A stretch of DNA of 64,000 nt, taken from NCBI GenBank assembly GCA_001725415.1, contig MEGH01000039.1, forward strand, positions 1-64,000, in the 5' to 3' direction. Shown in pieces: positions 37,259-55,036 of the stretch. Each line of letters opens with the position of its first letter. Position 1 is the first letter of the stretch. The notes below the pieces were generated by a model. That model searched no databases. It was given only the letters and a program-made list of their open reading frames with translations, and was not told the DNA's origin. Made by a program: the position numbers and the translations under genes. This DNA is from Pseudonocardia sp. SCN 73-27. Its GTDB lineage: Bacteria; Actinomycetota; Actinomycetes; Mycobacteriales; Pseudonocardiaceae.

Positions 37259-37319
37259 ATGCGAGATGGCGTCTTGCATGCCGCTACACCCATTGTGTGG
37301 GAAGTGGGTGGTGTGTCAA
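37259..37319 (-). promoter_or_regulatory. Promoter and operator of the Rieske dioxygenase operon
   Basis: Reading on the minus strand, TTGACA (37319-37314) is followed at 17-bp spacing by the weak -10 ACAATG (37296-37291). Downstream lies a 19-bp imperfect palindrome within 37259-37279 (plus-strand core TGCGAGATGGCGTCTTGCA, 14 of 19 symmetric). This core shares 15 of 19 bases with the operator-like block before the fumarylacetoacetase gene (41884-41902). An operator downstream of the start point suggests repression. The IclR protein encoded 220 bases away is the likely binder, by inference. Confidence 0.5.
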
Positions 37320-38205: not shown

Positions 38206-38233
38206 CGATCCTCCCGGCATGTGTGGCACGCCG

Positions 38234-38271: not shown

Positions 38272-38272
38272 C

Positions 38273-38605
38273 TCATGCGGGCCGGGCCGCGACGACAGCG
38301 GGGTGATCGGTTCCCACCCTACCGACCGTCTGGGCGCCCCCGGGCGAGCCGAGCTCACGGAAGAACTCGGCGTTCACGCCGGCCCAGTGCGCAGCCGTGT
38401 CGGGCAGGTCGTCGTGATGGAAGATCGACAGCTGCGGGCAGACGGCCTCGCAGGCGCCGCACTCGACGCACTCGTCGGGCTGGATGTAGAGCATCCGGGC
38501 GCCCTCGTAGATGCAGTCGACCGGGCACTCGGCGACGCAGGACCTGTCCATCTCGTCGATGCAGGACTCCGTGATCACGTACGGCACGTGGGGTTCATCT
38601 TTCAC
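38273..38605 (-). CDS. FdxA-type 7Fe ferredoxin
   Basis: A 110-residue ferredoxin of the actinobacterial FdxA pattern. The first cluster region has CIDEMDRSCVAECPVDC, where the spacing after the first Cys fits a 3Fe-4S cluster, and the second has CVECGACEAVCP for a 4Fe-4S cluster. The C-terminal 50 residues are a longer acidic/helical tail. In this cluster the expected job is electron delivery to the Rieske dioxygenase; no dedicated reductase is encoded nearby. GTG start at 38605 lacks a clear ribosome site, so translation may depend on the cupin gene 23 bases upstream. Confidence 0.9.
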   Translation of the reverse strand: MKDEPHVPYVITESCIDEMDRSCVAECPVDCIYEGARMLYIQPDECVECGACEAVCPQLSIFHHDDLPDTAAHWAGVNAEFFRELGSPGGAQTVGRVGTDHPAVVAARPA

Positions 38606-38628
38606 AAGGTGGGACGGGAGGGTCGTGC

Positions 38629-39024
38629 TCAGGAGATCGCCGGGGCCTCCTGCGCGCGCAGCTCCGCGAGGAAGTCGGCGCGCGGCGGCGCGAAGATGTC
38701 GATGTTGATGCAGGGCCCGCCGACCGGCTCGATGTGGTGCTCCGCCCCGGCGGGCACGAGCAGCAGCGACCCGGCGCTCATCCGGTGGGCGACGCCGGCG
38801 ACGTGGTAGTCGCAGGTCCCCTCGGTGATGAGGACGAGCTGGTCGAAGTCGGCGTGGCTGTGCGGGTTGCAGGTCATGCCTGCCTCGAGGCGGTGCCAGG
38901 CGACGGTGACCTCGTCGGTGGAGTAGAGGCGGCGGTGGACGCCGGGGCGTACGGTCGTCTCCGGGATGTCGTCCCAGTTCACGACGAGCCCGTAGAGCAG
39001 TGGGTTGCGTGCCTGCTCGGTCAT
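38629..39024 (-). CDS. Cupin-domain protein
   Basis: A 131-residue single cupin. The two conserved motifs are present: MTCNPHSHADFDQLVLITEGTCDY (in part; histidines and Glu) and LLLVPAGAEHHIEPVGG with the last metal His. It may bind a metal and act as a small dioxygenase, isomerase or sensor. ATG at 39024 overlaps the aldolase stop by four bases, so it belongs to the same transcript as the aldolase and hydrolase genes. Nothing shows its substrate. Confidence 0.88.
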   Translation of the reverse strand: MTEQARNPLLYGLVVNWDDIPETTVRPGVHRRLYSTDEVTVAWHRLEAGMTCNPHSHADFDQLVLITEGTCDYHVAGVAHRMSAGSLLLVPAGAEHHIEPVGGPCINIDIFAPPRADFLAELRAQEAPAIS

Positions 39025-39812
39025 GCTTCCTCCAGGGTCTCGGGTCGGTGGGCGGTGAGAGCGGCGCCGAGCAGTTGCAGGTCCGAGCCCAGCAGGACGT
39101 AGGTCGCGGCGGTGAGGCCGAGCCCGTCGACGGACCCGTCGGCGGGGGCCCAGCCGCCGAACGCGACGCCCGCCGCGGCCGCGGCCCGTTCGATCCCGGC
39201 GATCTCGTCGCGCAGCCGGTCGGCGTCGGCGCGGACGGCCGGGTCGAGGCCGAGCGCGACCTGCAGGTCGGTGGTCCCGACGAACACGACGTCGAGGCCG
39301 GCCGCGAGCTCCTCGACCGGGTCCGCGGTCGGGCCCTCGATCTGGCCGACGAGCAGCGGCGGGTTCTCCCGCTCGGCGTCGAGGTAGCCCCGTAGCCCGG
39401 TGCCGCCGTAGCCGGCCGCCCGGTGGCCGAGGCTCACCGAGCGGTCGCCCGTGGGGCTGTAGTGGGCGGCGGCGCGCAGGGCGTCGAGCTGGGCCAGGCT
39501 CGCCAGGGACGACAGCTGGATGCCCGCCGCCCCCGCCTCCAGCAGCCGGTTGACCAGCGCCCGGTCGACCGTCGGTGCCCGGACGACGACGGGCAGACCC
39601 AGCGCGTCGCCGTGGCGAACGAGCGCCAGGGCTTCACCGTCGGTGAGCCCGGAGTGCTCCAGGTCGACGACGGCCAGGTCCCAGCCCGCCCCGGCGACGG
39701 CCTCGAGGACGTCGGTCGGGGCGAGCTTGACGAAGGTGCCGACGACCCGGTGGCCCTGCGCCAACATCTGGCGCAGCCGCGCGCGGCTGCGGTGGACGCT
39801 GGTCGGTGTCAC
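39021..39812 (-). CDS. HpcH/HpaI-family 2-oxo-acid aldolase
   Basis: A 263-residue class II aldolase of the HpaI type. The metal and catalytic features are VVDLEHSGL, VVVRAPTVD with the conserved Arg, GQIEGPTADP (metal Glu) and VGTTDLQVALG (metal Asp). Typical reaction: retro-aldol cleavage of a 4-hydroxy-2-oxoacid to pyruvate and an aldehyde, the last step of a meta-cleavage route. GTG start eight bases after the amidohydrolase stop. Shorter and unrelated in detail to the CoA-ester lyase at 9077. Confidence 0.9.
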   Translation of the reverse strand: MTPTSVHRSRARLRQMLAQGHRVVGTFVKLAPTDVLEAVAGAGWDLAVVDLEHSGLTDGEALALVRHGDALGLPVVVRAPTVDRALVNRLLEAGAAGIQLSSLASLAQLDALRAAAHYSPTGDRSVSLGHRAAGYGGTGLRGYLDAERENPPLLVGQIEGPTADPVEELAAGLDVVFVGTTDLQVALGLDPAVRADADRLRDEIAGIERAAAAAGVAFGGWAPADGSVDGLGLTAATYVLLGSDLQLLGAALTAHRPETLEEA

Positions 39813-39819
39813 GGCCGGG

Positions 39820-40971
39820 TCAGGCCGCCGAGCCGCGCCACGGCACGAGGTCGACCGGCGCGCCGTTGTGCAGCACGGTGACCGGCTCGAACCGCGGGGC
39901 GACGATGCTGTTACCGGCGGCGTCGGGGAGGACCTGGTCGGAGACCTCCTCGATGACGGTGACGTGCGCGGCGGTGCCCGCCTCGAGGCTGCCGTAGCCC
40001 TCGTCGGCGATGCCGAGCAGGCGCGCCGGGTCGATCGTGGCGCGCTTGATGACCTCGTCGAGCGGGGCGCCCAGGGCGACCAGCTTGGAGATGGAGGTCA
40101 GCAGGTCGAAGACGGGTCCGCGCCAGTTGCGGGCGCTGGTGTCCGACGACGCGATGTCGGGCAGGAAGCCCTCCGCGATGGCGACCTTCGCGATGTCGAA
40201 CGACAGGTTCGACTTGCCGTGGGCGGAGTCGAACAGGACGCCGCGCTCGCGGGCCTCGGCGACGGCGGGCATGACGGCGCCGTCGGCGAGGATGTTGTGC
40301 GGCTTGCCGGTGTAGCAGTGGGCGACGATGTCGCCGGCCCGCAGCAGGGGGAGCAGGACGTCGAGGGGCTCGGACGTCTCGCCGATGTGCACCATGACCG
40401 GCAGGCCGGCCTCCTCGCCGACGGCCAGCGACCGGTCGAGCAGCTCGCGCCAGTTCTCGCCGACGACGTCCTCGGAGAGCCGGATCTTGAAGCCGCGCAC
40501 CACGTCGGGGTGTTCCTTGGCGACGGCGAGGGCGTCCTCGGGGACGAGGGTGTCGGGGTTCATCAGCTCACCGAACCGGAAGTCGATCAGGCCGAGGACC
40601 GACACGTTGAGGAAGCTGAGGATGCGCATCCCGCTCGGTTCGACGACGAGCTTGCGGAACGCGGCGAACGTCGAGGCACCGGCGGTTCCGGCGTCGGCGG
40701 CGGCGACGACACCGCGGCGAAGGTGGGCCTCGACGGGGTCCGCGCCGACCTTGCTCACGTGCTGGAAGATGTGGGTGTGGCCCTCGACCAGGCCGGGGAG
40801 CACGATCCGCCCGGTGCAGTCGATCGTCTCGGCGGCGGGTCCGGTGACGGTCTCGGAGACCTCGCTGATGCGGCCGTCGCGGATCGCGACGTCGAACCGG
40901 CCGTCGATCCCCTGTGCGGGATCGAGGACGCGGCCGCCCTTCAGGACGATGTCGTGGGCGCCTGCGTTCAT
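39820..40971 (-). CDS. Amidohydrolase/deacetylase-type metallohydrolase
   Basis: A 383-residue TIM-barrel amidohydrolase close to the deacetylase/dihydroorotase-like group. The N-terminal strand domain DIVLKGGRVLDPAQGIDGRFDVAI and IVLPGLVEGHTHIF (HxH) are followed by the bridging Lys in RGFKIRLSED, His in PVMVHIGE and AHCYTGKPHN, and the Asp in IASSDTSA: a full binuclear metal set. It hydrolyses an amide or cyclic amide. In this operon it may release the aromatic or aliphatic acid from an N-acyl precursor. ATG at 40971; 44-base gap to the gene upstream. Confidence 0.9.
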   Translation of the reverse strand: MNAGAHDIVLKGGRVLDPAQGIDGRFDVAIRDGRISEVSETVTGPAAETIDCTGRIVLPGLVEGHTHIFQHVSKVGADPVEAHLRRGVVAAADAGTAGASTFAAFRKLVVEPSGMRILSFLNVSVLGLIDFRFGELMNPDTLVPEDALAVAKEHPDVVRGFKIRLSEDVVGENWRELLDRSLAVGEEAGLPVMVHIGETSEPLDVLLPLLRAGDIVAHCYTGKPHNILADGAVMPAVAEARERGVLFDSAHGKSNLSFDIAKVAIAEGFLPDIASSDTSARNWRGPVFDLLTSISKLVALGAPLDEVIKRATIDPARLLGIADEGYGSLEAGTAAHVTVIEEVSDQVLPDAAGNSIVAPRFEPVTVLHNGAPVDLVPWRGSAA

Positions 40972-41015: not shown

Positions 41016-41867
41016 TCAGGCCGGCGTGAACGTGTCCGGGACGGCGGACAGCGCGATCGAGGTGTGCAGCGGCAGGACGCCGTCGACCTCGACGGTCAGC
41101 GTCGAGCCGGGTGCGAGGAAGGCACCGCGGTCCTGGCCGGTGCCGGCGGGCGTGCCGGTGAGCAGCACATCGCCGGGTTCGAGGGCGGCGAACCAGGAGA
41201 TGCGGGCGAGCAGCTCGGTGATCGGCCAGATCATGTCGGCGCTCGTCGAGTCCTGGTGGACGACGCCGTCGACGAGTCCGCGGACCCCGATCGCGTCGGG
41301 GTCGGCGACCCCCTCGGCGGGCAGTACCGACGCACCGATCGGGGTGCAGCCGGGGAAGCTCTTCGCGAGCGTCGGGTTGCCGGTCCGGACCATGACGTCG
41401 CGGGCGGTGAGGTCGTTGGCGGCGGTGATGCCGGCGACGTGGGACCAGGCGTCGCGGGCGTCGACGCGGTACATCCGGCGGCCGACGACGACCGCGATCT
41501 CGGCCTCGCCGTCGAGCTGCTCGGTGCAGCCGTCGGGGAAGGGCAGCGCGTCGCCGGACTTGGCGACCGCGGACACGGCGCAGGTGTAGAGCGTCGGCTC
41601 GACGGGGATCGGGCGGCCGGTGAGCCGGGCCTTGCTGTGGTAGTTCATGCCGACGCCCCAGAGCGTGCCGATCGTGCCGAGGGGGGCGATCAGGCCGGCG
41701 GTGGCCTCGTGGAGCGGGAGCCGGCGGGTGACGGGCGCGAGGTGCATGTCCTGCAGCGATCCGGTGGCCCGGACCAGCTCGCCGACGTCCCGGTGGGGCA
41801 GGTCGAGGAGTGCGACTTCGGCGCCGTCTCGGCGCGCGACCCCCCATCGGGTGGCAAGGACGTCCAT
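41016..41867 (-). CDS. Fumarylacetoacetate hydrolase family protein
   Basis: A 283-residue FAH-fold enzyme with GVGMNYHSKARLTG, the acidic metal cluster LDGEAEIAVVVG (two Glu) and ANDLTARD with the Asp, and LLTGTPAGTG near the end. Family members hydrolyse fumarylpyruvate, acylpyruvates or decarboxylate/hydrate 2-oxo-hepta/hex-enoates in meta-cleavage pathways. I chose ATG 41867 over ATG 41876. The promoter -10 box (41880-41875) overlaps the latter, and a start point seven bases on falls exactly on the A of ATG 41867, so the mRNA is probably leaderless. First gene of the hydrolase-amidohydrolase-aldolase-cupin-ferredoxin run. Confidence 0.9.
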   Translation of the reverse strand: MDVLATRWGVARRDGAEVALLDLPHRDVGELVRATGSLQDMHLAPVTRRLPLHEATAGLIAPLGTIGTLWGVGMNYHSKARLTGRPIPVEPTLYTCAVSAVAKSGDALPFPDGCTEQLDGEAEIAVVVGRRMYRVDARDAWSHVAGITAANDLTARDVMVRTGNPTLAKSFPGCTPIGASVLPAEGVADPDAIGVRGLVDGVVHQDSTSADMIWPITELLARISWFAALEPGDVLLTGTPAGTGQDRGAFLAPGSTLTVEVDGVLPLHTSIALSAVPDTFTPA

Positions 41868-41873
41868 ACGTCG

Positions 41874-41904
41874 CATCTTTCGATGCGAGACGCCGTCTTG
41901 TCAA
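41874..41904 (-). promoter_or_regulatory. Promoter/operator of the fumarylacetoacetase operon
   Basis: On the minus strand the -35 TTGACA (41904-41899) and the -10 AAAGAT (41880-41875) are 18 bp apart. The 31-base block matches the corresponding stretch of the promoter at 48304-48334 in 25 of 31 positions, including CATCTT, TGCGA, ACGCCGTC and TGTCAA. The symmetric core AGACG-C-CGTCT lies between the boxes, a position suited to a repressor. The transcript would start at the ATG of the FAH gene. Confidence 0.65.
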
Positions 41905-42093
41905 CTATCCCGTGATGGCATCGCGGATCGTGAGACGGTCAGCACTCTAGGAAAGGTGGCGTCGACGGTAGAACCACAGGTCAGATGCCATGCTGCCGCG
42001 ACAGCGCGCTCGTGCATCACGGGCGGAACGCACGCACCGGCCGACGTCGCGAGACGGCCGGCCGGCGAGGGAGAGCCTGGAGAGGGGCCCGCG

Positions 42094-43164
42094 TCAGTTG
42101 CCCCAGTCGAGCCGGGGCTGCGTGACCTCCCCGATGCGGTGGCGACCGTCGGGGTGGCCCGGACCGTCGGCCACCCCCTGCTCCTTGACGACGTGCTTGC
42201 CGAAGCCCGGCACGAGCGGTCGCGTGCCGCGCTTGAGCCACAGCCGCATCAGGTGCCGACGCCGCCCGGGCTCGGGATGGTCGACGAACGCCGTGCGCGA
42301 GTGGAGCGCGGCATGGTTGGACAGCCACTGGATGTCGCCGGGCCGGAAGTCCATGTGCAGGACGAGCCCGTCGTGGCGCAGGATCTCGTCGAACAGGTCG
42401 AGCAGCTCCTCCTGCTGCGGCGTCAGCCGCGGGACCTCCTCGTAGTCCTGCGCCGAGCGGATGATCCGGTTGCCGGCGTACATGCTGAACACGCCGTCGA
42501 CGACACAGACCATCGGCGAGGTGTAGGTGTTCGCGGGCGCGTCGTGGTCCTGCTTGTACCAGTCCCAGTGCCACGTCTCGAACATCAGCGGCGCCAGGTC
42601 GGGCCGGCGCTCCAGCACGGTGTTGTAGATCGTCGCCGCGCAGATCAGACTGCTCGCCCCGCCCTCCTTCGCCGGCCGCAGGCACAGCAGGCCCACGACG
42701 TCGCTGGAGTCGGAGTGGAAGTTGAGGCTGTCGCGGATCGCCGACCCGAGCGCCGTCGGGTCGTCGCGCTTCTTGTCCGAGGTCGCCCGCACGTGGTCGA
42801 GCAGGTCTCCCATCTGGTTGAGCTGCATGGGCACGCCCAGGTGCAGCCCCAGCACGAAGTAGATGGCCCCGGACAGGGCGTCGCCGTACTCGTCGACGCG
42901 CAGGCCACGGACCAGCACGAAGCCGCGGCCGCCGTCGAGGACGCGGGCCCATTCGTCGACGGCCGGGCGGCACACCGGCAGCGGGTAGTCGTCGGCGGTG
43001 ACGCGGCGCAGGTCGGGGTCGTCGGCGACGAAGCGCCGGCCGACGGTCTCGAGCTCGGCGAGCTCGTCTGTCGTCAGCCGGTGGATCCAGTCGGTACGGG
43101 CGGACAGCTCGTCGCCACGCCACACGGCGGGGCCGCTGACGGGCTGGGACGTCATGGTGGACAT
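42094..43164 (-). CDS. TauD/TfdA-family 2-oxoglutarate/Fe(II) dioxygenase
   Basis: A 356-residue jelly-roll dioxygenase. The iron facial triad is His150 and Asp152 in NFHSDSSD and the distal His288 in AALHSRT; Arg307 in RRRHLMRLWL should hold 2-oxoglutarate. This matches the larger TauD-like branch common in soil bacteria, which oxidises small carboxylates, sulfonates or ethers. ATG 43164 follows GAGGA. It lies 224 bases after the enolase-superfamily gene of the importer operon and is a distant paralogue of the protein at 49718 (shared SDSSDVVGLLC-type core). The region 41905-42093 downstream shows no gene. Confidence 0.9.
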   Translation of the reverse strand: MSTMTSQPVSGPAVWRGDELSARTDWIHRLTTDELAELETVGRRFVADDPDLRRVTADDYPLPVCRPAVDEWARVLDGGRGFVLVRGLRVDEYGDALSGAIYFVLGLHLGVPMQLNQMGDLLDHVRATSDKKRDDPTALGSAIRDSLNFHSDSSDVVGLLCLRPAKEGGASSLICAATIYNTVLERRPDLAPLMFETWHWDWYKQDHDAPANTYTSPMVCVVDGVFSMYAGNRIIRSAQDYEEVPRLTPQQEELLDLFDEILRHDGLVLHMDFRPGDIQWLSNHAALHSRTAFVDHPEPGRRRHLMRLWLKRGTRPLVPGFGKHVVKEQGVADGPGHPDGRHRIGEVTQPRLDWGN

Positions 43165-43371
43165 GTCTGTTCCTCGGGTGATCGGGCGGTTTTTCGACCC
43201 GTCGTGGGCGCGGCCGCGCGCCGGGTCCGGTGCGTCCCGATCAGAAGTGCGCGTAGATCCCGTTGACTGCTGTGCCGTGCCGCAGGCCGTGGCGCTTGGG
43301 CGCCGACCTGCGACGTGGGTACGGATTCGTCGTCCTCACCTCCCTACGAAGCCTCCCTGCGGTGCGTCCCG

Positions 43372-43399
43372 AGCTCAGACGTCCCAGCTCAGACGTCCC
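43372..43399. repeat. Perfect 14-bp tandem duplication at the stop of the enolase-superfamily gene
   Basis: AGCTCAGACGTCCC is present twice head to tail (43372-43385 and 43386-43399). The second copy contains the stop codon of the mandelate-racemase-like gene (43391-43389). A simple replication-slippage duplication explains it; it does not disturb the reading frame. Confidence 0.7.
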
Positions 43400-44555
43400 C
43401 GTTGAAGCGGTCCAGGAGTCCCTTCGACGTGCCGACGACGCGGCCGCGCGGAGGGGAGTAGGGGTGCTTCGCGGCGGCTGCCTCGTCGAGGTCGACACCC
43501 AGGCCCGGGCCGTCGGGGATCGGCAGCATGCCGTCGACGACCTGGTCGAGTCCAAGCTTGGCGCCCACCGACAGCTCCTCGTGCGCGGGCACGAGGTGCA
43601 GCGAGTACTCGACGAGCCGGATCGCCGGCACCGTCGCGGCCAGGTGAAGGTTCGCCGTCAGCGCCAGCGGGCCCGCCGAGATGTGGGGGACGACGCGGGC
43701 GCCGTAGCGCGACGCCGCGACCTGCGCCATCCGCCGCGCCACCGAGATGCCGCCGTTGACCGCGGCGTCGGGCTGCAGCACCGACACCCCGCTCTCCAGG
43801 ACCTGAATCGCCTCCTCGACGCCGAACAGGTGCTCGCCGTAGGCGATCGGCACCGCGCTCGCCCGTGCGGCCGACGCGATCCCGGCCCACGCCGTCTGCG
43901 GCATGGGCTCCTCGAACCAGCGGATGCCGAGGTCGGCCAGGTGCCGCGAGAGCTCGACGGTGGTCGCCTGTGTGTAGGTCTCGCTGCCGTCGATCATCAG
44001 CTCGACGTCCGACGGCAGCAGGCCGCGCAGCTCGGTGAGCACGCGCAGGTCGTCGTGCCAGGCCGGGCCCAGCCGCACCTTCGCCTTGGTGACGCCGCGC
44101 TCGGTGGCGCGCGAGATCAGCTCGTGGTGGAAGCTCGCCGGGCCCTCGTCGAGGAACGTCGACGACGCGTAGATCTCGACGGCGTCACGCACCCGGCCGA
44201 TCAGGGCGCTGACCGAGCGCCCGGACGCCTTGCCCAGCAGGTCCCACAGCGCGATCTCGACGGCGCTGCGTGCCTGCGCCGCGATCCAGACGTCGCCGAG
44301 GCGGCGGCGGGTGGCCATGCGCAGCTTCTCGGTCAGCGGCTCGACCGCGACCAGCTCCTCGCCGGCCAGGAGCGGGTCGTAGACGTCGCGGATCAGCGTG
44401 GCCAGCACCGAGGCGTAGGAGCAGCCGTAGCTGTCGCAGGCCTCGCCGTAGCCGACGAGCCCGTCGTCGGTGGTGATCTTGACGAAGAGCAGCGACATCG
44501 GCTCCCGGCGCAGCGGGAACGTGACCGGGATCGGCTCGATCGACCGGATTCTCAT
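43389..44555 (-). CDS. Mandelate racemase/muconate lactonizing enzyme (enolase superfamily)
   Basis: A 388-residue enolase-superfamily member with the catalytic Lys pair KAK (157-159), the metal ligands Asp189 (MIDGSETY), Glu215 (FEEPMP) and Glu241 (AYGEHLFG), and the general acid/base Asp263 and His291 (VVPHISAG). The KxK and His-Asp dyad put it in the mandelate-racemase subgroup: abstraction of the alpha-proton of a carboxylate for racemisation or dehydration. Its ATG overlaps the ATPase stop by four bases, so it is co-translated with the importer and probably acts on the imported compound. Confidence 0.93.
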   Translation of the reverse strand: MRIRSIEPIPVTFPLRREPMSLLFVKITTDDGLVGYGEACDSYGCSYASVLATLIRDVYDPLLAGEELVAVEPLTEKLRMATRRRLGDVWIAAQARSAVEIALWDLLGKASGRSVSALIGRVRDAVEIYASSTFLDEGPASFHHELISRATERGVTKAKVRLGPAWHDDLRVLTELRGLLPSDVELMIDGSETYTQATTVELSRHLADLGIRWFEEPMPQTAWAGIASAARASAVPIAYGEHLFGVEEAIQVLESGVSVLQPDAAVNGGISVARRMAQVAASRYGARVVPHISAGPLALTANLHLAATVPAIRLVEYSLHLVPAHEELSVGAKLGLDQVVDGMLPIPDGPGLGVDLDEAAAAKHPYSPPRGRVVGTSKGLLDRFNGDV

Positions 44556-45427
44556 GCCTTCAGCTCCGAGGGCCGGCCGTCGAGCTCGGCGTCGCTCCCC
44601 GCGGACGAGGTCGCGGCCGGGCGGCGGACCAGGGTGAACACCTCGGCGCGCCGCTTCACGAACTCCGGCTCGGCCTTGGTGGTGAGCTGGTCGCGACGGC
44701 CCAGGTCGACCGGGATGTCGGCGATGAGCCGGCCCGGGTGGGCGGCCAGCACGATGACGCGGTCGGCCACGTACACGGCCTCGTCGATGTCGTGGGTGAC
44801 CATCGCGACGGTCATGTCGTACCGGTCACGCAGCGCCAGGACCAGGTCCTCGAGGTCGGCGCGGGTCTGGGCGTCGACGGCGGCGAGCGGCTCGTCCATC
44901 AGCATGACGGTCGGCTCGACGACCAGCGCGCGGGCGATCGCGACGCGCTGCTGCATGCCGCCCGACATCTGCCACGGGTACAGCGCCTGTGTCCCGGCGA
45001 GGTCGACGGCCGTCAGCGCCTCGTCGACGCGGCGGGCCACCTCGGCCTTGGGCAGCTTGTCGGCCGCCGCGGCCATCGACAGGTTCTTGCCGACGGTCAT
45101 CCACGGGAACAGCGAACGTCCGTAGTCCTGGAAGACGACGGCGACGCCGGGAGGCGGGCCGGAGATGGGCGTGGAGCCCAGCCGGATTCCGCCCGCGGTG
45201 GGCTTGAGCAGCCCGGCCATCATCATCAGCAGGGTCGACTTGCCGCAGCCGGACGGCCCGACGATGGAGATGAACTGGCCGCTCTCGACGGTGAACGAGG
45301 TCTCGTCGAGTGCGAGGCGGGCCGTGGGGCCGTCCCCGTAGACCTTCTTGACGCCTTCGACGTGCAGATCCATCGGTGCCTTCGCTCCGTTCGGCGTGCG
45401 TGTTCGCGGTGTCGCGAGGATGGTCAT
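44552..45427 (-). CDS. ABC transporter ATP-binding protein (SsuB/TauB-like)
   Basis: A 291-residue ATPase with Walker A GPSGCGKST, Q-loop VVFQDYGRSLFPWMTV, signature MSGGMQQRVAIARAL, Walker B VMLMDEPLAAVDAQTR and switch His VTHDIDEAV. The C-terminal 45 residues are an extra charged tail. ATG at 45427 in an ATGA overlap with the permease gene is favoured; an internal ATG at 45373 (MDLHVEG) would give the typical family start and is the alternative. Confidence 0.92.
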   Translation of the reverse strand: MTILATPRTRTPNGAKAPMDLHVEGVKKVYGDGPTARLALDETSFTVESGQFISIVGPSGCGKSTLLMMMAGLLKPTAGGIRLGSTPISGPPPGVAVVFQDYGRSLFPWMTVGKNLSMAAAADKLPKAEVARRVDEALTAVDLAGTQALYPWQMSGGMQQRVAIARALVVEPTVMLMDEPLAAVDAQTRADLEDLVLALRDRYDMTVAMVTHDIDEAVYVADRVIVLAAHPGRLIADIPVDLGRRDQLTTKAEPEFVKRRAEVFTLVRRPAATSSAGSDAELDGRPSELKA

Positions 45428-46326
45428 TGGCCGCTCAGCCCCTCCCGGCGCTGCCAGCGCAGCACGCGCTTCTCGATGAGCTCGAGGACGACGTTGAGGA
45501 GCACGCTGATCACGCCGATCAGCAGGAACGCCGACCACATCTGCAGGAACTTGAAGGACTGCTGGTTGAGCAGGATCTCGTAGCCGACACCCGCGGTCGT
45601 CGCGTAGAGCTCCGAGATCACCATGAGGATCAGTGCGACGCCGATGCTGACGCGGACACCGGTGAGGATGCCCGGCATCGCGGCGGGCACGAGGACCCGC
45701 CGGTACAGCGTGAACGGTGAGATCCGCAGGCTGCGGGCCGTCTGCAGGGTCATCCGATCGACGCCCGCGACGCCGTCGGCGGTGTTGACGATGATGAGCC
45801 CGACGGTGCCGACGAAGATCAGGAAGACGTTCATGCTGTCGGCGATGCCGAAGATCTGCACGGCGACCGGGATGATCGCCGACTTCGGCTCGGCCAGCCA
45901 GAACCGGATGAACGGGAAGTACATGGCCGCGGCGACGGCGCTGCGGCCCAGCAGGATGCCGACGGGGATGCCGACGACCAGCGCCAGCCCCCAACCCTGC
46001 GCGAGACGCCGGAGGCTGGGCAGGGCGGCGTCGAAGAAGTGCTGGGACAGGAACAGCGACGACGGGTCGCCGGTGAACCAGTCCTGGCCGAACTGCACGA
46101 AGATCTTCGACAGCGGCGGGAAGTAGAGCGTCGGACTGAGGGTGGCGACGACCTGCCACAGGATCGCGATCGCGACGAGCAGCCACAGGCTGCTCACCCC
46201 GCTCACCAGGCGGCGGCCGAAGGGGCGCTTTCGGCGCGGGACGCGCGTGGTCGGCGCCTTGTCGCCGGCGGGTGGGGGCGGCGGTGCGGACGTGAGAGTG
46301 GACGTGGCCCCGGACGGGTCAGGCAC
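45424..46326 (-). CDS. ABC transporter permease 2 (SsuC/TauC-like)
   Basis: A 300-residue permease. About 45 N-terminal cytoplasmic residues rich in Pro, Ala and Arg precede six hydrophobic segments, with the EAA loop near LQTARSLRISPFTLYRRVLVPA and the preceding WLAEPKSAIIPVAVQIFGIA. GTG at 46326 with GGAGG four bases before it overlaps the other permease gene by eight bases. It forms a heterodimer channel with the permease encoded upstream, unlike the single permease at 29319. Confidence 0.9.
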   Translation of the reverse strand: MPDPSGATSTLTSAPPPPPAGDKAPTTRVPRRKRPFGRRLVSGVSSLWLLVAIAILWQVVATLSPTLYFPPLSKIFVQFGQDWFTGDPSSLFLSQHFFDAALPSLRRLAQGWGLALVVGIPVGILLGRSAVAAAMYFPFIRFWLAEPKSAIIPVAVQIFGIADSMNVFLIFVGTVGLIIVNTADGVAGVDRMTLQTARSLRISPFTLYRRVLVPAAMPGILTGVRVSIGVALILMVISELYATTAGVGYEILLNQQSFKFLQMWSAFLLIGVISVLLNVVLELIEKRVLRWQRREGLSGQ

Positions 46327-47155
46327 TGGCCCTCCAACCGACGGCGCGACGCTCGAGACGGACCAGCACGGTGTAGAGGAGCGCACCGAGCAGGCCGACG
46401 ACGATGACGGCCGCGTAGACGATGTCGGGGCGCAGCGCCTGCTGGTACAGCCGCAGGAACGTGCCGACCCCGGAACGCGCGCCGAGCAGCTCGGCGGCGA
46501 TGACGACGACGAGTGCCGTGCCCGTCGCGACCCGCACGCCGGTGAGGATCGACGGCAGCGCGCTGGGCAGCGTGACGTACACCTGGCGGCGCCACCACGG
46601 CCAGCGCATGGACCGTGCGGCGTCGAGGCGCAGCGGCTCGGTGCCGAGCACGCCGTAGCTGGTGTTGATGATGATCGGCCACAGGATCGCCCAGAAGGCG
46701 ATGGCCACCTTCATCTCCGTCGCCAGCCCGAACATCAGGATGGCGATCGGCAGCAGTGCGGTGGCCGGGACGGCCCGCGCGACGTTGACGACGACCATCG
46801 ACGGCCGGCGCAGGAACGGGATCGCGCTGGTGACCAGACCGATGAGGATGCCCGCCGCGCTGCCGAGGGCGAGCGCGATCAGCCAGGTGAGCAAGGTGTC
46901 GCCGAGGGCGCCGAGGAACTCGCCGCTGGTGAGCACGCCGGGCAGGGCGGCGGCCACCACCGCCGGCCCGGGGAGGGCCGACGGCGGGATGACGCCGGTG
47001 GAGGCGCCGAGCTGCCAGAGCGCGATCAGCGAGCCGGTGCCGAGGATGCCGAGCAGTATCCGCTGGGTGCGGCTGAGCTGGGCGGCGGTGACTGCGCGCG
47101 ACGAACCGGGCGGGACCTGCTGCCTCGGCCGGGTCGTCGTCGACGCCGCGGTCAT
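46319..47155 (-). CDS. ABC transporter permease 1 (SsuC/TauC-like)
   Basis: A 278-residue permease with about six hydrophobic segments, the motif VARAVPATALLPIAILMFGLATEM and an EAA loop around LRLDAARSMRWPWWRRQVYVTLPSA. ATG at 47155 overlaps the stop of the binding-protein gene by four bases. Two different permease genes in one SsuABC-like system imply a heteromeric membrane channel. Confidence 0.9.
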   Translation of the reverse strand: MTAASTTTRPRQQVPPGSSRAVTAAQLSRTQRILLGILGTGSLIALWQLGASTGVIPPSALPGPAVVAAALPGVLTSGEFLGALGDTLLTWLIALALGSAAGILIGLVTSAIPFLRRPSMVVVNVARAVPATALLPIAILMFGLATEMKVAIAFWAILWPIIINTSYGVLGTEPLRLDAARSMRWPWWRRQVYVTLPSALPSILTGVRVATGTALVVVIAAELLGARSGVGTFLRLYQQALRPDIVYAAVIVVGLLGALLYTVLVRLERRAVGWRASA

Positions 47156-48135
47156 CCGGTGGTCCAGGCGAAGTCGGCGACCTTGGTCTCGACGGGGAAG
47201 TCGGCCGGGATGGCCTTCGTCTCGGCGAGGATCGACTTCATCCGCATGAACGAGCCGCGGTCGATGCGCCCGGCGTAGCCCTGCTCGGCGATCTGCGCGA
47301 GGTCGGCGGCGGGGCGCTTGCAGTACTTGGAGAAGATGTCGAACTTCTGGGCGTTGTTGGCCTTGTCGTTGCCCGCCTTGGCCGCCTCGTCCATGGCGTC
47401 GGTGAACTGCACGACGGCCTTCTGGTTCTTCGCGAGGAAGTCGTTCGAGGTGGCGTAGAGCGCGGTCGGGGTGGCGCCGCCGGCGGCGTCGAAGATCGGG
47501 TTGCCGATCGAGCGGCCGGTACCGGCCTTGGTCACCTCGAAGATCTCGGTCGACGTGACCTGCGCGCCGTCGACGGCCTTGTTGGCGACGGCCGTGGCGA
47601 GCTCGGGGAAGGGCAGCGCGGTGAACTTCGGCGCGGTGCCGCCGGCGTCGGTGATCCACCGGGAGGTGAGGACGGCGCCGGTGCCGGTCAGCTCGTTGAC
47701 GGCGACGGTCTTGCCGGAGAGGTCGGCGGGGCCGCGGGCGGGGGAGTCGGCGGCGACGATGACGCCGTGGCTCTCGGGCGTCGAGACGCCACTGCCGGAG
47801 ACGATCGTGAGCGGCAGGCCTTGCGCGAGCGCGTTGAAGATGGCCGCCGAGCTGACGAACGCGACGTCGGCCGAGCCGGACTGGACCGCGGCGATGCCGG
47901 CGTTGCCCCCCGTGGACTTGACGAGCTCCACGTCGAGGCCGTGCTTGGCGAAGATCCCGGCGTCCTGGGCGTAGAGGGCGATCTCGTTGCAGAGGCCGAG
48001 GCTGGTGACCCGCAGGGGGATCCGGCCGGACTCGCTGGCGGCCACCTCGTCGGTCGATGACCCGCACCCGGCCAGCGTCGCGAGGGCGACCACCGATGCG
48101 ACGGCGGTCGCGACCCACCTGAGACGTCGATTCAT
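47152..48135 (-). CDS. ABC transporter substrate-binding lipoprotein, paralogue A
   Basis: A 327-residue NMT1/SsuA-like binding protein with signal peptide MNRRLRWVATAVA and lipobox LATLAGCGSS (Cys24). It is a close paralogue of the protein at 50765: both share RVTSLxLCNE, FxKHGLDVE, TGGNAGxAAxQSGxADV, LTIVSGxG, FTALPFPEL, TKAGTGRSIGN and KQ/KRPAADLAQI. LCNE and CKRP are unusual and may mark the ligand site. GGAGTG lies before the ATG. It is the first gene of a binding protein-permease-permease-ATPase-enolase operon with a 5' leader of roughly 160 bases. Confidence 0.92.
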   Translation of the reverse strand: MNRRLRWVATAVASVVALATLAGCGSSTDEVAASESGRIPLRVTSLGLCNEIALYAQDAGIFAKHGLDVELVKSTGGNAGIAAVQSGSADVAFVSSAAIFNALAQGLPLTIVSGSGVSTPESHGVIVAADSPARGPADLSGKTVAVNELTGTGAVLTSRWITDAGGTAPKFTALPFPELATAVANKAVDGAQVTSTEIFEVTKAGTGRSIGNPIFDAAGGATPTALYATSNDFLAKNQKAVVQFTDAMDEAAKAGNDKANNAQKFDIFSKYCKRPAADLAQIAEQGYAGRIDRGSFMRMKSILAETKAIPADFPVETKVADFAWTTG

Positions 48136-48303
48136 GGGGCACTCCGTTGTGTGGTGGAACGGCCGTCGGCGGCGCGGCTCTCGCCTGCGCCTTCTGTCTG
48201 CTCCGCCGCCGCGGCGGGTCCGGGTGAACACATGCTTACCGAGTCCTGTATCGACCGCCGTGCGACATTCGCCACGTTCGTGGAGGAGCGGCCGAGGTGG
48301 CGC

Positions 48304-48344
48304 CATCTTGTATTGCGATACGCCGTCGTGTCAATCAATACGGC
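48304..48344 (-). promoter_or_regulatory. Promoter/operator of the importer operon (41-bp shared block, copy 1)
   Basis: On the minus strand, TTGACA (48334-48329) and CAAGAT (48310-48305) are 18 bp apart. The 41-base block is identical in 39 of 41 positions to the block at 49619-49659, which lies in front of the second TauD/binding-protein pair, in the same orientation relative to its gene. Such conservation between two otherwise different intergenic regions points to a common regulator covering the -35 and -10 boxes. Confidence 0.75.
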
Positions 48345-48376
48345 AGTGCGACCGTCGAGGCGCCCGGGCGGGCGGA

Positions 48377-49483
48377 TCACGCGAAGATCGACCGGTCGAT
48401 GCCGCAGTGCGCGCCGAGCACTCCGTCGACCACTTGCGTGACGCCGAGGTCGCCCGCGACCGACACCAGTGAGTAGGCGTCATCGGCCGAGAGCCCCACT
48501 CGCCACCGCAGCAACGCGACCATCTCGCGCGCTGCCATCAGCGCGGCGGCGTCCAGGTCGTCGCCGAACCCGTGGGTGAACCAGTGCGTCGCTGTCTCCA
48601 GCAGCGGCGTGCGGATCTCGATGTCGTCGACTGCGGCGACGCGGATCGTCGCGTTCATCGACGCCTCGATCGCCGTCCCGCACACCTCGCCGTCGCCCTG
48701 CGCGAAGTGCGGGTCGCCGACGTAGATGCCCGCGCCCTCGTGGAAGACCGGGAAGAAGACGGTGGCCCCTTCGCCGAACCGCCAGTTGTCGACGTTCCCA
48801 CCGAACACGCCGGGCGGCACCGTCGAGACGGGTTCGGTGCCGGGCGGCAGCACCCCGATCACGCCGAAGTGCGGACGGACCGGGATGCTCACCGGACGGC
48901 TGAACGGCTCGTCGGCGCGTGCGTCGGCAGGGGAGAGCCAGCCGGGGACGTCGTATACCGGGCGGCTGCGGAAGTCGTAGGCGAACTCGGGGCGGGCGGT
49001 GGCGGGGAAGGCGTCGCCGTTCTCGTCCAGGCGATAGATCGTGATCCGCTCCTTGCCGAAGTCGGAGTGCAGCAGTCCCCAGTTGGCGGCGCAGTTGGAG
49101 CCGTAGGGCACGCGCGGCGCGGTCGACTCGATGCGGACGGCGACCGCGCCCCCGGGCCGCGCACCGGCGACGGCGACCGGTCCGGTCAGGACGTGCACGC
49201 CCGGGCCGCGCTCGTGCTCGGGGAACGCCGACCAGATGGCGTGCAGGCCGTCGTCGAGCATCAGCTCGGGGGCGTCGCCGGCGTGGTGGCTGACGGCCTC
49301 GACGTCGAGACGGGCACCGGAGTCGACGGTCCGGACGGGGGGCGCGGCCGGGTCGATGGAGCCCCAGCGGACGGTCTGCGGGGTCGCGGGCAGCGCGTGG
49401 GCCGGGGGTGCGGCGGCGGCGAAGGTCTCGGTCGTCGTGGGCGAGAGCGTCTCGATCGCGTGCAGAGTGGGGGTACGGGTCAT
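48377..49483 (-). CDS. Acetamidase/formamidase family amidase
   Basis: A 368-residue FmdA/AmdA-type amidase with GPGVHVLTGPVAVAGARPGGAVAVRIE, the conserved FGVIGVLPPGTEP and GGNVDNWRFGEGATVFFPVFHEGAGIYVGD-type region (read in parts), and GDGEVCGTAIEASM. It hydrolyses short-chain or unusual amides to ammonia and an acid in the cytoplasm. It lies between the two transporter modules, transcribed alone on the minus strand; the 234-base gap upstream (49484-49717) holds the divergent promoter at 49619. No ribosome site is obvious before ATG 49483. Confidence 0.92.
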   Translation of the reverse strand: MTRTPTLHAIETLSPTTTETFAAAAPPAHALPATPQTVRWGSIDPAAPPVRTVDSGARLDVEAVSHHAGDAPELMLDDGLHAIWSAFPEHERGPGVHVLTGPVAVAGARPGGAVAVRIESTAPRVPYGSNCAANWGLLHSDFGKERITIYRLDENGDAFPATARPEFAYDFRSRPVYDVPGWLSPADARADEPFSRPVSIPVRPHFGVIGVLPPGTEPVSTVPPGVFGGNVDNWRFGEGATVFFPVFHEGAGIYVGDPHFAQGDGEVCGTAIEASMNATIRVAAVDDIEIRTPLLETATHWFTHGFGDDLDAAALMAAREMVALLRWRVGLSADDAYSLVSVAGDLGVTQVVDGVLGAHCGIDRSIFA

Positions 49484-49618
49484 GGTTCAAGGAGGCCCCG
49501 GGACTGTTGCCGACGCGTGACGTCGCAGTAAAACCGTCCCGCATTGCGTGATGACGTAACGCACCGTGCGGTGACGCCGACTACACCTGCGGGAGTGCGA
49601 TGCGCTTCGTTCGGCCCC

Positions 49619-49659
49619 GCCGTATCGATTGACACGACGGCGTATCGCATTACAAGATG
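49619..49659 (+). promoter_or_regulatory. Promoter/operator of the second TauD module (41-bp shared block, copy 2)
   Basis: TTGACA (49629-49634) and CAAGAT (49653-49658) are 18 bp apart, and the whole 41-base block matches the inverted copy at 48304-48344 in 39 positions. Transcription should start near 49665. An 8-bp stem (GGAATCCG 49662-49669 with CGGATTCC 49689-49696) would then sit at the 5' end of the message, before the GTG at 49718, and could affect stability or translation. Confidence 0.75.
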
Positions 49660-49717: not shown

Positions 49718-50707
49718 GTGGCTCGAGTGATCGGTGGCCCCGCGGCATGGCGCGGACCGGAGATCGTCGACTCCCCCGAGTGGAAGATCGAGCTGACCCC
49801 CGAGCACGTCGATGAGCTGCGGGCCGCGCTGCGCGGTGTCGACGAGCCCGACCGCGCACTGCGCTCGATCACCCGCGAGAACTTCCCCCTGCCCACCCTC
49901 GCCCCCGTCCTCGCCGCCGTGCAGGACGAACTGGTCGACGGCCGCGGCTTCGTGCTGCTGCGCGGCGTCCCCGTCGAGGAGCTCACCGAGCGCCAGGCCG
50001 AGCTCATGTACTGGGGCATCGGCCTCTACGTCGGCGTCCCGATCCACCAGAAGGGCGAGGACGACCTGCTCCTGCACATCCGCGACATGGGGCTCGACCG
50101 CAACGACCCCCTCGTCCGTGGCTTCCAGACCTCGGCGCGGCTCGACTATCACGCCGACTCCTCCGATGTCGTCGGCCTGCTGTGCATCCGGCCGGCCATG
50201 CGCGGCGGCGTCTCGACGATCGTCAGCGCCGTCGCCGTCCACGACGAGATCGTCCGCCGCCGCCCCGACCTCGCCGAGGTGCTGCACGAGCGCTGGTGGC
50301 ACGACCGCCGCTCCGGCGACGGCCCCGAGAGCTTCTTCGAGTGCCCGATCTTCGCCGAGGAGGGCGGCAAGCTCTTCGCCCACTACGGCCGCGCCTACAT
50401 CGACTCCGCCCCGCGCGGCGAGGGCGTCCCGGATCTCACCCCCGCGCAGGTCGAAGCCATGGACCTGCTCGACGAGCTGGACAACAGCGCCGAGTTCGTC
50501 CTCAACATGAACTTCGCGCCCGGCGACATCCAGTTCCTGAACAACTACACGATCATGCACGCGCGCACCGACTACGAGGACTACCCCGAGCCGGAGCGCA
50601 AGCGCGACCTGATCCGCCTGTGGCTGGTGCTCGACCGCGACCTCGGCCTCCCGGCCGACTTCGAGGCCGGGGGCATCACTCCGCGCTCGGCCGCGCTCAG
50701 CCGCTGA
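49718..50707 (+). CDS. TauD/TfdA-family 2-oxoglutarate/Fe(II) dioxygenase
   Basis: A 329-residue dioxygenase with His145 and Asp147 (DYHADSSDVVGLL), distal His281 (IMHARTDYEDYPEPE) and an Arg near 300 (RDLIRLWL) for 2-oxoglutarate. The block NMNFAPGDIQFLNNY is typical of this branch. It is a paralogue of the protein at 42094, though the central 100 residues differ, so the substrates may differ too. GTG start at 49718; the next gene, a binding lipoprotein, follows after 57 bases in the same direction and probably delivers the substrate. Confidence 0.92.
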   Translation: MARVIGGPAAWRGPEIVDSPEWKIELTPEHVDELRAALRGVDEPDRALRSITRENFPLPTLAPVLAAVQDELVDGRGFVLLRGVPVEELTERQAELMYWGIGLYVGVPIHQKGEDDLLLHIRDMGLDRNDPLVRGFQTSARLDYHADSSDVVGLLCIRPAMRGGVSTIVSAVAVHDEIVRRRPDLAEVLHERWWHDRRSGDGPESFFECPIFAEEGGKLFAHYGRAYIDSAPRGEGVPDLTPAQVEAMDLLDELDNSAEFVLNMNFAPGDIQFLNNYTIMHARTDYEDYPEPERKRDLIRLWLVLDRDLGLPADFEAGGITPRSAALSR

Positions 50708-50764
50708 CCTGCAAGGAAACCGTACGTCCCCCGAACCCCGCTGATCCCTCCACGGAGCATCCAG

Positions 50765-51760
50765 ATGAACCGACGTCTCAGATGGGTCGCGGCCGCCGCG
50801 GCGGCATCGCTGGCCCTCGTCCTGTCCGCCTGCGGCGGTGGCTCCTCCGGCACCGAGGTCGCCGCCGGCGCCGACGGCAAGGTCAAGCTCCGCGTCACCA
50901 GCCTCTCGCTGTGCAACGAGCTCGGCCTCTACACCAAGGACGGCGGCTACTTCGACAAGCACGGCCTCGACGTCGAGTTCGTCAAGGCGACGGGCGGCAA
51001 CGCCGGCGTCGCGGCACTGCAGTCCGGCGCGGCCGACGTCGTCACCGTGAGCCCCGCCGCGGTGTTCAACGCGATGGCCCAGGGCATCGACCTGACCATC
51101 GTCTCCGGCGCGGGCCGCACCACCCCGGAGACGCACGGCATCATCGTCAAGGCGGACTCGCCGCTGCAGGGCCCGAAGGACCTCGCGCAGGGCAAGACCC
51201 TCGCCGTCGTCGAGCTGTCCGGCACCGGTGCCGCGCTGACCAAGAAGTGGGTCGAGAACGCCACCGGCGGTCAGACCGACCTCAAGTTCACCGCGCTGCC
51301 CTTCCCGGAACTCGCGCCGGCGGTCGTCAACGGCACCGTCACCGCCGCCCAGGTCACCGCGTCGGAGATCTTCACGGTGACCAAGGCCGGCACCGGCCGG
51401 TCCATCGGCAACGCGATCTACGAGGCGTCCGGCGGCCCCACCCCGGTCTCGCTGTACGCCGTCTCCCCCGACTTCCTGGCCAAGAACCAGAAGACGATGG
51501 AGCAGTTCACCGCCGCTATGCAGGAGGCCGCGGTCAGCGCGAACGACCCGAACAACACCGAGAAGTTCGACGTCTTCTCCAGCTACTGCAAGCAGCCGGC
51601 CGCCGACCTGGCCCAGATCCCGCAGGTCACGTTCGAGGGCAACATCGACCGCGCGTCGTTCATGCGCATGGTCAAGGTCGTCCACGACGCGAACATGATC
51701 CCGGCCGACTTCCAGCCGGAGACCAAGGTCGCCGAGTTCGCCTGGGCGCCCAACACCTGA
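50765..51760 (+). CDS. ABC transporter substrate-binding lipoprotein, paralogue B
   Basis: A 331-residue NMT1/SsuA-like protein with signal peptide MNRRLRWVAAAAAAS and lipobox LVLSACGGG (Cys23). It is strongly similar over its whole length to the protein at 47152, including LCNELGLYTKDGGYFDKHGLDVEF and FDVFSSYCKQPAADLAQIP. No permease or ATPase gene accompanies it. It may therefore share the membrane complex encoded at 44552-47155, giving that importer two alternative binding proteins. A strong stem-loop follows its stop. Confidence 0.92.
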   Translation: MNRRLRWVAAAAAASLALVLSACGGGSSGTEVAAGADGKVKLRVTSLSLCNELGLYTKDGGYFDKHGLDVEFVKATGGNAGVAALQSGAADVVTVSPAAVFNAMAQGIDLTIVSGAGRTTPETHGIIVKADSPLQGPKDLAQGKTLAVVELSGTGAALTKKWVENATGGQTDLKFTALPFPELAPAVVNGTVTAAQVTASEIFTVTKAGTGRSIGNAIYEASGGPTPVSLYAVSPDFLAKNQKTMEQFTAAMQEAAVSANDPNNTEKFDVFSSYCKQPAADLAQIPQVTFEGNIDRASFMRMVKVVHDANMIPADFQPETKVAEFAWAPNT

Positions 51761-51774
51761 TCCCTGCTCACACG

Positions 51775-51815
51775 CAGCGGTCCTGCCGTCCGTCCCCAGG
51801 GTGGCAGGACCGCTG
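51775..51815 (+). terminator. Stem-loop terminator after binding protein B
   Basis: A perfect 13-bp stem (CAGCGGTCCTGCC at 51775-51787 with GGCAGGACCGCTG at 51803-51815) and 15-base loop begins 15 bases after the stop codon. A strong hairpin without U-run is usual for factor-independent or processing-type ends in GC-rich actinobacteria. Confidence 0.7.
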
Positions 51816-51837
51816 TATGTCCGGAGGTCCTGCTCGC

Positions 51838-52725
51838 ATGGTGCAGATCGTGGTGGCCGACGACGAGGGCGCCGCGGTGCTCACGGAGGTCGTCCCGGGG
51901 TCTTCGACGGTCGTCGTCCCGTTGTCCGGGCCGTTGCCGGCGGCCGCTCTCGGGGCGGAGGTGCTCGTCCCGCCGTTCGCGGTGCGCGGCACCAGGTTCC
52001 AGGAGCTGGCCGCGCGGATGCCGCGGCTGCGGCTGATCCAGCTGCTGACCGTCGGCGTCGACCAGTGGCAGGGCGCCGTCCCCGCCGGGGTCACGCTCTC
52101 AAACTGCCGCGGCGCCCACGACGCCCCCGTGGCCGAGTGGATCGTCGCGTCCCTGCTGGCGGTGCTGCGGGACCTCCCCCGCTACGTGCACGCACAGGCG
52201 GCCTCGGCATGGGCTCCCGGGCAGGCCGAAACCCTTGCGGGGAAACGGGTCCTGGTCGTCGGAGCCGGTGACGTCGCCACCGCGGCGCGGGCCCGGCTGG
52301 AGGTCTTCGGCGCGACCGTGACGCTGGTCGGCCGCGCCGCGCGCCACGGCGTCTCGGGGATCGACTCGCTCGACGACCTGCTCCCGCACCACGACGTCTG
52401 CGTGCTCGCCATCCCGCTGACCGACTCGACGGCCGGCCTGATCGGGGCGTCCCGCCTCGCGGCCCTTCCCGACGGCGCCGTCCTGGTCAACGCCGGCCGC
52501 GGCGGCCTGGCGGACACCACGGCCCTCGACGCGGCGCTCCGCACCGGCCGCCTCCGCGCGGCCCTCGACGTCACCGACCCCGAACCGCTCCCGGCCGATC
52601 ATCCACTGTGGAGCGCACCCGGCCTGCTCCTGACCCCGCACGTCGCGGGCCGTGTCGCAGGCGTGGGCCGCCGCGCCTACACCGTGGCAGGCCACCGCAT
52701 CGCGTCGTACTTCCAGAGCCTGTGA
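51838..52725 (+). CDS. D-isomer-specific 2-hydroxyacid dehydrogenase family protein
   Basis: A 295-residue NAD-dependent dehydrogenase. The Rossmann motif is VLVVGAGDVATAARARLEVFG; the catalytic Arg is in VNAGRGGLADT, the Glu in DVTDPEPLPADHPLW and the His in LTPHVAG, so the Arg-Glu-His triad is complete. It interconverts a 2-hydroxyacid and a 2-oxoacid. ATG 51838 has GGAGG ten bases upstream; an in-frame ATG at 51817 overlaps the hairpin region and is less likely. Its stop codon lies inside the first copy of the 40-bp palindrome. Confidence 0.88.
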   Translation: MVQIVVADDEGAAVLTEVVPGSSTVVVPLSGPLPAAALGAEVLVPPFAVRGTRFQELAARMPRLRLIQLLTVGVDQWQGAVPAGVTLSNCRGAHDAPVAEWIVASLLAVLRDLPRYVHAQAASAWAPGQAETLAGKRVLVVGAGDVATAARARLEVFGATVTLVGRAARHGVSGIDSLDDLLPHHDVCVLAIPLTDSTAGLIGASRLAALPDGAVLVNAGRGGLADTTALDAALRTGRLRAALDVTDPEPLPADHPLWSAPGLLLTPHVAGRVAGVGRRAYTVAGHRIASYFQSL

Positions 52726-54967: not shown

Positions 54968-55036
54968 CGGGACTCCGTCGTGATGGTTCTGCGCGCGGTG
55001 TTGCCCGGCCGCGCCACCGGGGTCGTACCCGTCTTT

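Follow-up and report, generated by a model that had tools for sequence, protein, structure and literature searches.

Operator-promoters of a putative IclR-family regulon in an aromatic-catabolism cluster of Pseudonocardia sp. SCN 73-27

The operators of the IclR-family regulators PcaU, PobR and HmgR contain, according to the parts of the survey by Suvorova and Gelfand (2021) used here, an additional direct half-site (PMC8222616). The same parts give TGRAACA-N1-2-TGTTYCA as the consensus of group-2 IclR proteins and place most site centres 20-80 nt ahead of the gene start. In Pseudonocardia sp. SCN 73-27, the first 64,000 nucleotides of contig MEGH01000039.1 (assembly GCA_001725415.1; hereafter the window) hold an aromatic-catabolism cluster with a gene for an IclR-family protein, and related blocks of sequence recur ahead of several of its transcription units (sites A to E, the last a probable one; a different, possible site F is also in Table 1). 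These blocks are likely to be the operator-promoters of one local regulon under the cluster's IclR-family protein, whose site would be a 21-bp dyad. Such a regulon is well supported by sequence comparison and rather conventional in kind.

Promoter blocks and the embedded dyad

Blocks A and B are identical at 39 of 41 bases, and block C agrees with A at 25 and with B at 26 of 31. TTGACA and a -10 box (CAAGAT in A and B, AAAGAT in C) are separated by 18 bp in all three. A first-pass annotation of this DNA had given the 39/41 and 25/31 counts and the 18-bp distance in the three best copies, and a recount returned the same values. It had also called the core at D related; D shares 13, 14 and 16 of 21 bases with A, B and C, respectively, and is thus weaker in sequence. 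It is nevertheless the most symmetrical copy and the clearest dyad (8/10 pairs complementary), although it lacks TTGACA. The dyad core spans 21 bp, approximately ATGCrAGAyGnCrTCTyGCAT, and is located in the -35/-10 spacer, its left half-site overlapping bases of TTGACA at A, B and C. The proposal of a shared promoter-operator block stands, refined to an IclR-type dyad inside a promoter spacer.

The 21-mer TGNMAMGACGSCRTMTCGCAW, derived from the four copies A-D and searched with up to three mismatches, was found at four places in the window; 100 shuffles gave 0.22 ± 0.52 places, and four were reached in none of them. The whole genome (6.95 Mb, 99 contigs) contains 17 matches at this tolerance, with five for a reversed control: A, B and C match exactly, two mismatches are seen at D and at one position of contig C70, and 12 places have three. 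The C70 match sits inside a transposase gene and was rejected as an operator. A genome-wide motif search had been suggested with the first-pass annotation; a 30-base promoter pattern, again with up to three mismatches, was found in this genome exactly three times, at A, B and C and without mismatch, and its control gave none. A scan of the window against Rfam returned no match.

The site and its candidate regulator in other genomes

The IclR-family protein of the window carries the domains PF09339 (43.1 bits, cut-off 22) and PF01614 (63.8 bits, cut-off 24), which place it in the family. Among 397 genomes of the order, orthologues (E<=1e-45) were found in 13 other genomes; they are 59-77% identical, and the helix stretch SKATAHRYTKALR is invariant across the 14 orthologues. 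A dyad pattern matched in 10 of the 14 genomes that have the orthologue and in one of the 383 that lack it. The latter match (G135) lies inside an rtcB gene and was rejected as chance. Since the pattern was written when the sites of seven of the 10 matched genomes were already known (those of G252, G401 and G409 being unseen), the low rate in genomes without the IclR protein is the stronger half of this evidence.

In the ten stretches compared first, many of the same genes lie near iclR in varying order: the Rieske alpha gene in nine, and beta, VOC, FAH, amidohydrolase, HpcH, cupin, P450, aldehyde dehydrogenase and TauD genes in varying numbers. The cleanest form of the dyad, ATGCGAGAC-N3-GTCTCGCAT, stands between divergent iclR and Rieske genes in G261, G265 and G276, and the FAH gene of relatives is preceded by TGACAAGACGSCGTCTCGCAT. 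The gene order at iclR differs locally by rearrangement: its open reading frame (37423-38358) is co-directional with the Rieske genes in the window, whereas the two are divergent, with the dyad between them, in the three genomes just named (compare locus L070, 18470-19294). Five loci (L061-L065, in G038, G370, G252, G401 and G409) have a second IclR copy, 49-51% identical, close beside the orthologue.

A wider scan with the IclR alignment gave 76 loci from Blastococcus, Streptomyces, Micromonospora, Nocardioides, Actinomadura, Microtetraspora and others, including Chloroflexi metagenome-assembled genomes (MAGs). The 65 used (1.15 Mb) leave out L107, L109, L111, L148 and L158, whose contigs equal those of genomes already used in length, L108, which precedes the first locus taken (L110), and L178-L182, which show 30-37% identity. 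They are not phylogenetically independent: several are from Streptomyces, Actinomadura and Microtetraspora, and L110 and some Micromonospora loci are close to training genomes. With a dyad matrix built from the five window sites and 18 sites of relatives, 57 of the 65 loci were positive at a cut-off of 19 bits (211 strand hits), compared with a mean of 0.55 hits (largest 3) for 20 column-shuffled matrices and none for the reversed matrix. The hits fall at 153 places, 132 of which (86%) are centred between 350 bp before and 30 bp behind the start of a homologous gene; positions drawn at random from these loci satisfy this criterion in 16.4% of cases. When a place between two genes is counted for both, the sites are assigned to genes for Rieske protein (52), ferredoxin (36), FAH (35), IclR (26), TauD1 (12, with 12 of the 16 loci that have a TauD1 homologue carrying one), aldehyde dehydrogenase (6), alcohol dehydrogenase (6), FmdA (5) and P450 (4). 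FAH sites are concentrated at 25-26 and about 50 bp, a counterpart to site E stands at the same place in relatives, and two of the three Chloroflexi MAG loci have a site.

The dyad follows this regulator and not other IclR genes: it was found at none of 27 loci of non-orthologous IclR genes. In genomes that lack the IclR protein, none of 16 loci with a paralogous Rieske gene has it, compared with 13 of 13 orthologous Rieske loci, partly from genomes whose sites had trained the matrix. The IclR protein had been named as candidate regulator in the first-pass annotation, and this distribution favours that candidate. The same site precedes the same aromatic-degradation genes in dozens of other bacteria. 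It is therefore very probably bound by the IclR protein, and the window's own IclR is very probably the regulator of the blocks.

A matrix made from relatives only had as its five best window places C (31.1 bits), D (29.7), E (27.9), B (20.5) and A (18.3); in 30 simulated windows the best place scored 21.6 and the largest fourth-best 12.3. C, D and E therefore clear chance singly, and A and B only as part of the set. This test is circular in that the relatives' sites had been picked for their resemblance to those of the window, and it was therefore repeated without such selection. From the 65 loci, the DNA upstream of FAH homologues (33; 30 without near-identical sequences) and of Rieske homologues (45; 42 without near-identical sequences) was chosen by protein homology alone and submitted to an expectation-maximisation motif search with neither window sequence nor window seed. 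The 30 FAH upstreams yielded TTGACAnnAnnCCnTCTCGCAnnGAAAGAT, the same promoter as that of the window blocks, with its best window places at C (43.0 bits), B (30.7) and A (29.5); the next scored 18.3 and the maximum of 30 simulated windows was 20.4. The 42 Rieske upstreams yielded nTGCGAGAnGGnnTCTCGnAT, the dyad, with D (31.4 bits), C (20.1) and E (18.1) as best places and a simulated maximum of 19.5. This search, made without window sequence, thus secures the predicted promoter form of A, B and C, and at D and C the dyad. Site E is probably a further operator, supported by the relatives-only matrix, in which it exceeds the simulated maximum, and by its counterpart in relatives, although its de novo score does not reach the maximum for that motif.

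Two other matrices bear on the promoter. An FAH homologue is present at 34 loci, and 14 FAH promoters with a dyad entered a 41-column matrix; they had been picked by the dyad matrix that contains the window sites. With minor variation they share CGTATyGcTTGACAnGAyGnCrTCTCGCATtgAAAGAT. This matrix gave 47.6 bits for A, 44.3 for B and 40.2 for C, with the next place at 3.9, the largest of 40 simulated windows at 9.1 and the largest of 39 control loci at 7.4. After removal of the dyad columns, A (22.0) still exceeded the simulated maximum of 17.2, B (16.4) nearly reached it and C (7.8) was below it. A matrix of window sites A-D only, applied to the gene starts of relatives, pointed in the right direction but weakly and was not relied on; its null was drawn from site-bearing regions, and the queries for Rieske and amidohydrolase had been translated in the wrong frame. 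Its unsymmetrical form at p<=0.01 marked starts of FAH (7/12), Rieske (5/13), IclR (3/13), ferredoxin (3/10), alcohol dehydrogenase (1/10), aldehyde dehydrogenase (1/10), P450 (1/7) and TauD1 (1/9, at an impossible distance), and none for HpcH (0/12), cupin (0/12), amidohydrolase (0/2) or enolase (0/1). The symmetrical form marked FAH (3/12), Rieske (3/13), IclR (3/13), ferredoxin (3/10) and TauD1 (1/9), and no others.

Predicted regulon, proposed mechanism and alternatives

The predicted regulon comprises four secure sites and one probable site and takes in about six transcription units, which extend from about 34 to 57.6 kb. Motifs made without the window recover the site before the units of A, B and C (FAH motif) and of D (Rieske motif), and their ranking of C, B, A and D as the best places agrees with the earlier proposal of one response across the aromatic and TauD modules. 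The units named in that proposal are supported; the regulon appears wider, including the Rieske operon through D and probably the aldehyde and alcohol dehydrogenase genes through E.

The simplest reading of the arrangement is repression rather than activation by IclR. At A, B and C the dyad occupies the 18-bp spacer of the TTGACA/-10 promoter. IclR bound there as a dimer or tetramer would keep RNA polymerase off by promoter occlusion until a compound of the aromatic pathway, either its substrate or an intermediate, released the protein. Release would induce import (binding proteins and ABC importer), the TauD oxygenases, ring hydroxylation and cleavage through D and the lower pathway through C, and probably also the aldehyde dehydrogenase, P450 and alcohol dehydrogenase genes through E. 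In block C the end of the -10 box is 7 nt away from the downstream ATG at 41867, a distance of 6-7 nt in the 14 FAH promoters; the message would thus be expected to start at the start codon, and the FAH mRNA is probably leaderless. As iclR is last in line after the FAH, amidohydrolase, aldolase, cupin and ferredoxin genes, it is probably autoregulated via C.

Several observations weigh against this account. No site stands directly upstream of iclR in the window with the relatives-only matrix. In the Pseudonocardia genome, a looser symmetrical dyad pattern gave 35 strand hits and its control gave 27; D (no mismatch) and C (one to two) stand out, and A, B and E, at three mismatches, lie within background, so that the dyad by itself would not single them out genome-wide. 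The dyads of A and B deviate from the consensus, with ACGAC and GTATC in place of AAGAC and GTCTC, and their IclR affinity may differ from that of the other sites. Their dyad-only scores in the relatives-only matrix are both below the simulated maximum, and they are absent from the best seven window places of the Rieske-derived nTGCGAGAnGGnnTCTCGnAT, with which E also falls slightly short of the simulated maximum. The case for A and B therefore rests on the whole promoter. Eight of the 65 loci (L115, L130, L144, L155, L157, L168, L175 and L177) have no site at 19 bits, although two of them reach high values in the 41-column matrix (L115, 30.8; L155, 43.6). Finally, the IclR protein and the orthologous Rieske protein occur in the same 14 genomes, and the dyad is thus not attributable to IclR apart from these enzymes.

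One alternative keeps the same IclR protein and the same sites and has the inducer-bound protein activate transcription by bending or realigning the promoter with its 18-bp spacer, as reported for some IclR proteins that act at -35/-10. In its favour, the -10 boxes AAAGAT and CAAGAT are imperfect. TTGACA is the consensus -35 element and a spacer of 18 bp differs little from the usual length, so there is no obvious need for an activator, and we consider activation unlikely. Far less probable is the binding of the blocks, A and B above all, by another regulator: the GntR-FCD protein (22824-23618), the LuxR-type ATPase (30082-32787), another IclR protein of the genome or the product of a distant gene. 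It draws on the deviant dyads of A and B, on the presence of the GntR and LuxR-type genes in the window, where they are the only two other regulators among the frames scanned, and on the 22 genome matches to the IclR protein at E<=0.001, itself included. Neither of the two is conserved in related clusters: of ten related stretches, one has a match to the GntR protein, with 29% identity, and four have a match to the LuxR-type protein, over just 53-183 residues at 30-43%; the other IclR matches of the genome are at 6e-15 or weaker among the matches listed, and the dyad tracks this IclR protein across genomes.

It could also be supposed that the likeness of A and B merely reflects recent copying or gene conversion and that C and D are coincidence, given the 39 identical bases and the paralogous binding proteins downstream (SBP1 and SBP2, 212/326 identical). 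The identity of A and B ends at the block edges, falling from 19/20 in the 20-bp steps beside the centre to 1-10/20 beyond, so that the block is not a piece of a longer recent duplication. This confinement, together with the ranking of C, B, A and D as best by motifs made without window sequence, refutes copying as the sole explanation, which we regard as barely tenable. Copying may still be the origin of A and B. Beyond the local IclR regulon lies a more tentative reading, which we think possible but would not yet favour: an undescribed IclR regulog across many actinobacterial genera and some Chloroflexi MAGs, in which the operator also forms the spacer of a promoter that is probably leaderless, and which has grown here by copying of an ancestral FAH-type promoter block onto the importer and two TauD modules. 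A and B fit the foreign FAH promoters better than the window's own C in the 41-column matrix. The shorter de novo motif ranks C above both, which weakens the idea of growth by promoter copying.

Gene content and described IclR systems

Table 1. Predicted sites and genes of the cluster (window positions).
Feature	Position	Strand	Description
Block A	48304..48344	-	predicted promoter-operator ahead of SBP1, ABC importer, enolase-like and TauD1 genes
Block B	49619..49659	+	predicted promoter-operator ahead of TauD2, SBP2 and 2-hydroxyacid dehydrogenase-like genes
Block C	41874..41904	-	predicted promoter-operator of FAH-hydrolase operon
Site D	37259..37279	.	near-perfect dyad ahead of Rieske operon
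Site E	56465..56485	.	probable dyad between divergent aldehyde and alcohol dehydrogenase genes; beyond the coordinates of the first-pass annotation
Site F	49544..49564	.	possible weak site ahead of FmdA_AmdA gene; dyad TTGCGTGATGACGTAACGCAC, 7/10 pairs complementary
iclR, candidate regulator	37423..38220	-	PF09339, PF01614; reading frame to 38358, probable start 38220
SBP1, NMT1-type binding protein	47152..48135	-	PF09084; probable start, taken from MNRRLRW
ABC importer	44552..47155	-	two permeases and ATPase; PF00528, PF00528, PF00005
Importer reading frames	46319-48142; 45424-46386; 44552-46186		permease; permease (N-termini of both not settled); ATPase
Enolase-superfamily enzyme	43389..44555	-	PF13378/PF02746
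TauD1-like dioxygenase	42094..43164	-	PF02668
FAH-family hydrolase	41016..41867	-	PF01557
Amidohydrolase, HpcH/HpaI aldolase, cupin, 4Fe-4S ferredoxin	38273..40971	-	in line towards iclR
Rieske alpha and beta, VOC extradiol-type dioxygenase	34080..37200	-	PF00355/PF00848, PF00866, PF00903; inner starts not settled
TauD2, SBP2, D-2-hydroxyacid dehydrogenase-like	49718..52725	+	PF02668, PF09084, PF02826
P450-reductase fusion and aldehyde dehydrogenase	52772..56434	-	PF00067/PF00111/PF00175; PF00171
Zinc alcohol dehydrogenase	56496..57584	+	PF08240/PF00107; probable start

The Rieske alpha protein is similar to enzymes of the benzoate and biphenyl types and scores under the benzoate cut-off. A Rieske/extradiol pathway supplied by P450, alcohol dehydrogenase and aldehyde dehydrogenase would be in keeping with an alkyl-aromatic that is oxidised to an acid. 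The dyad of site F scores 12.0 bits with the relatives-only matrix and 11.4 bits in the de novo search, both inside the simulated range, and is perhaps a diverged operator or the site of another regulator. A degenerate dyad 25 bp upstream of C (11.4 bits, relatives-only matrix) was not counted as a site. Elsewhere in the window, an RPE65-type (carotenoid/stilbene cleavage-like) oxygenase gene lies at 26015-28558 beside the gene of a third NMT1-type binding protein, 94/296 identical to SBP1, and no operator was seen there. The genes around those for the GntR-FCD and LuxR-type proteins include an ABC importer of the branched-chain type and further catabolic genes.

With a candidate regulator that can be named, a consensus for its operator and promoters located to the base, the aromatic-catabolism cluster becomes a defined regulon, predicted here and in dozens of other genomes. 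The inducer, and hence the substrate of the cluster, becomes testable by a simple reporter. If the inducer is found, the compact operator-promoter, a single 41-bp block serving several units, could be used as an aromatic biosensor.

The best NCBIfam match of the IclR protein is TIGR02431 (PcaR/PcaU/PobR), at 90.4 bits against a cut-off of 284.75, which places it outside that group. The IclR fold, a role in aromatic catabolism and a dyad operator are shared; the dyad here is GAGAC-N3-GTCTC, whereas theirs is GTNCG-N5-6-CGNAC, and the pathway genes are others. As a counterpart to the extra half-site of PcaU, PobR and HmgR, A, B and 13 of the 14 foreign FAH promoters have a half-site-like CGTAT or CGCAT box 5' of TTGACA. 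A PcaU-like three-box operator was kept only in part as a rule: the CGTATyG form stands at A, B and most FAH promoters, C has CGGGATAG in its place, and D and E are without the arrangement. IphR of Comamonas (isophthalate) shares the GTCTC core in its site GTCTCATCAGAC, as given in the consulted parts of the survey (PMC8222616), but its half-sites point inward and it belongs to another genus and another pathway. Close tandem dyads are 25 bp apart here (five pairs), compared with 18-22 in those parts, and many sites here likewise have their centres 20-80 nt ahead of the gene start. The literature search found no description of this operator, which may already be included in the supplementary tables of that survey. 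With group 2, the system shares two half-sites and a very short spacer, approximately CGAGACG-N1-CGTCTCG here, and differs in that its half-sites are G+C-shifted.

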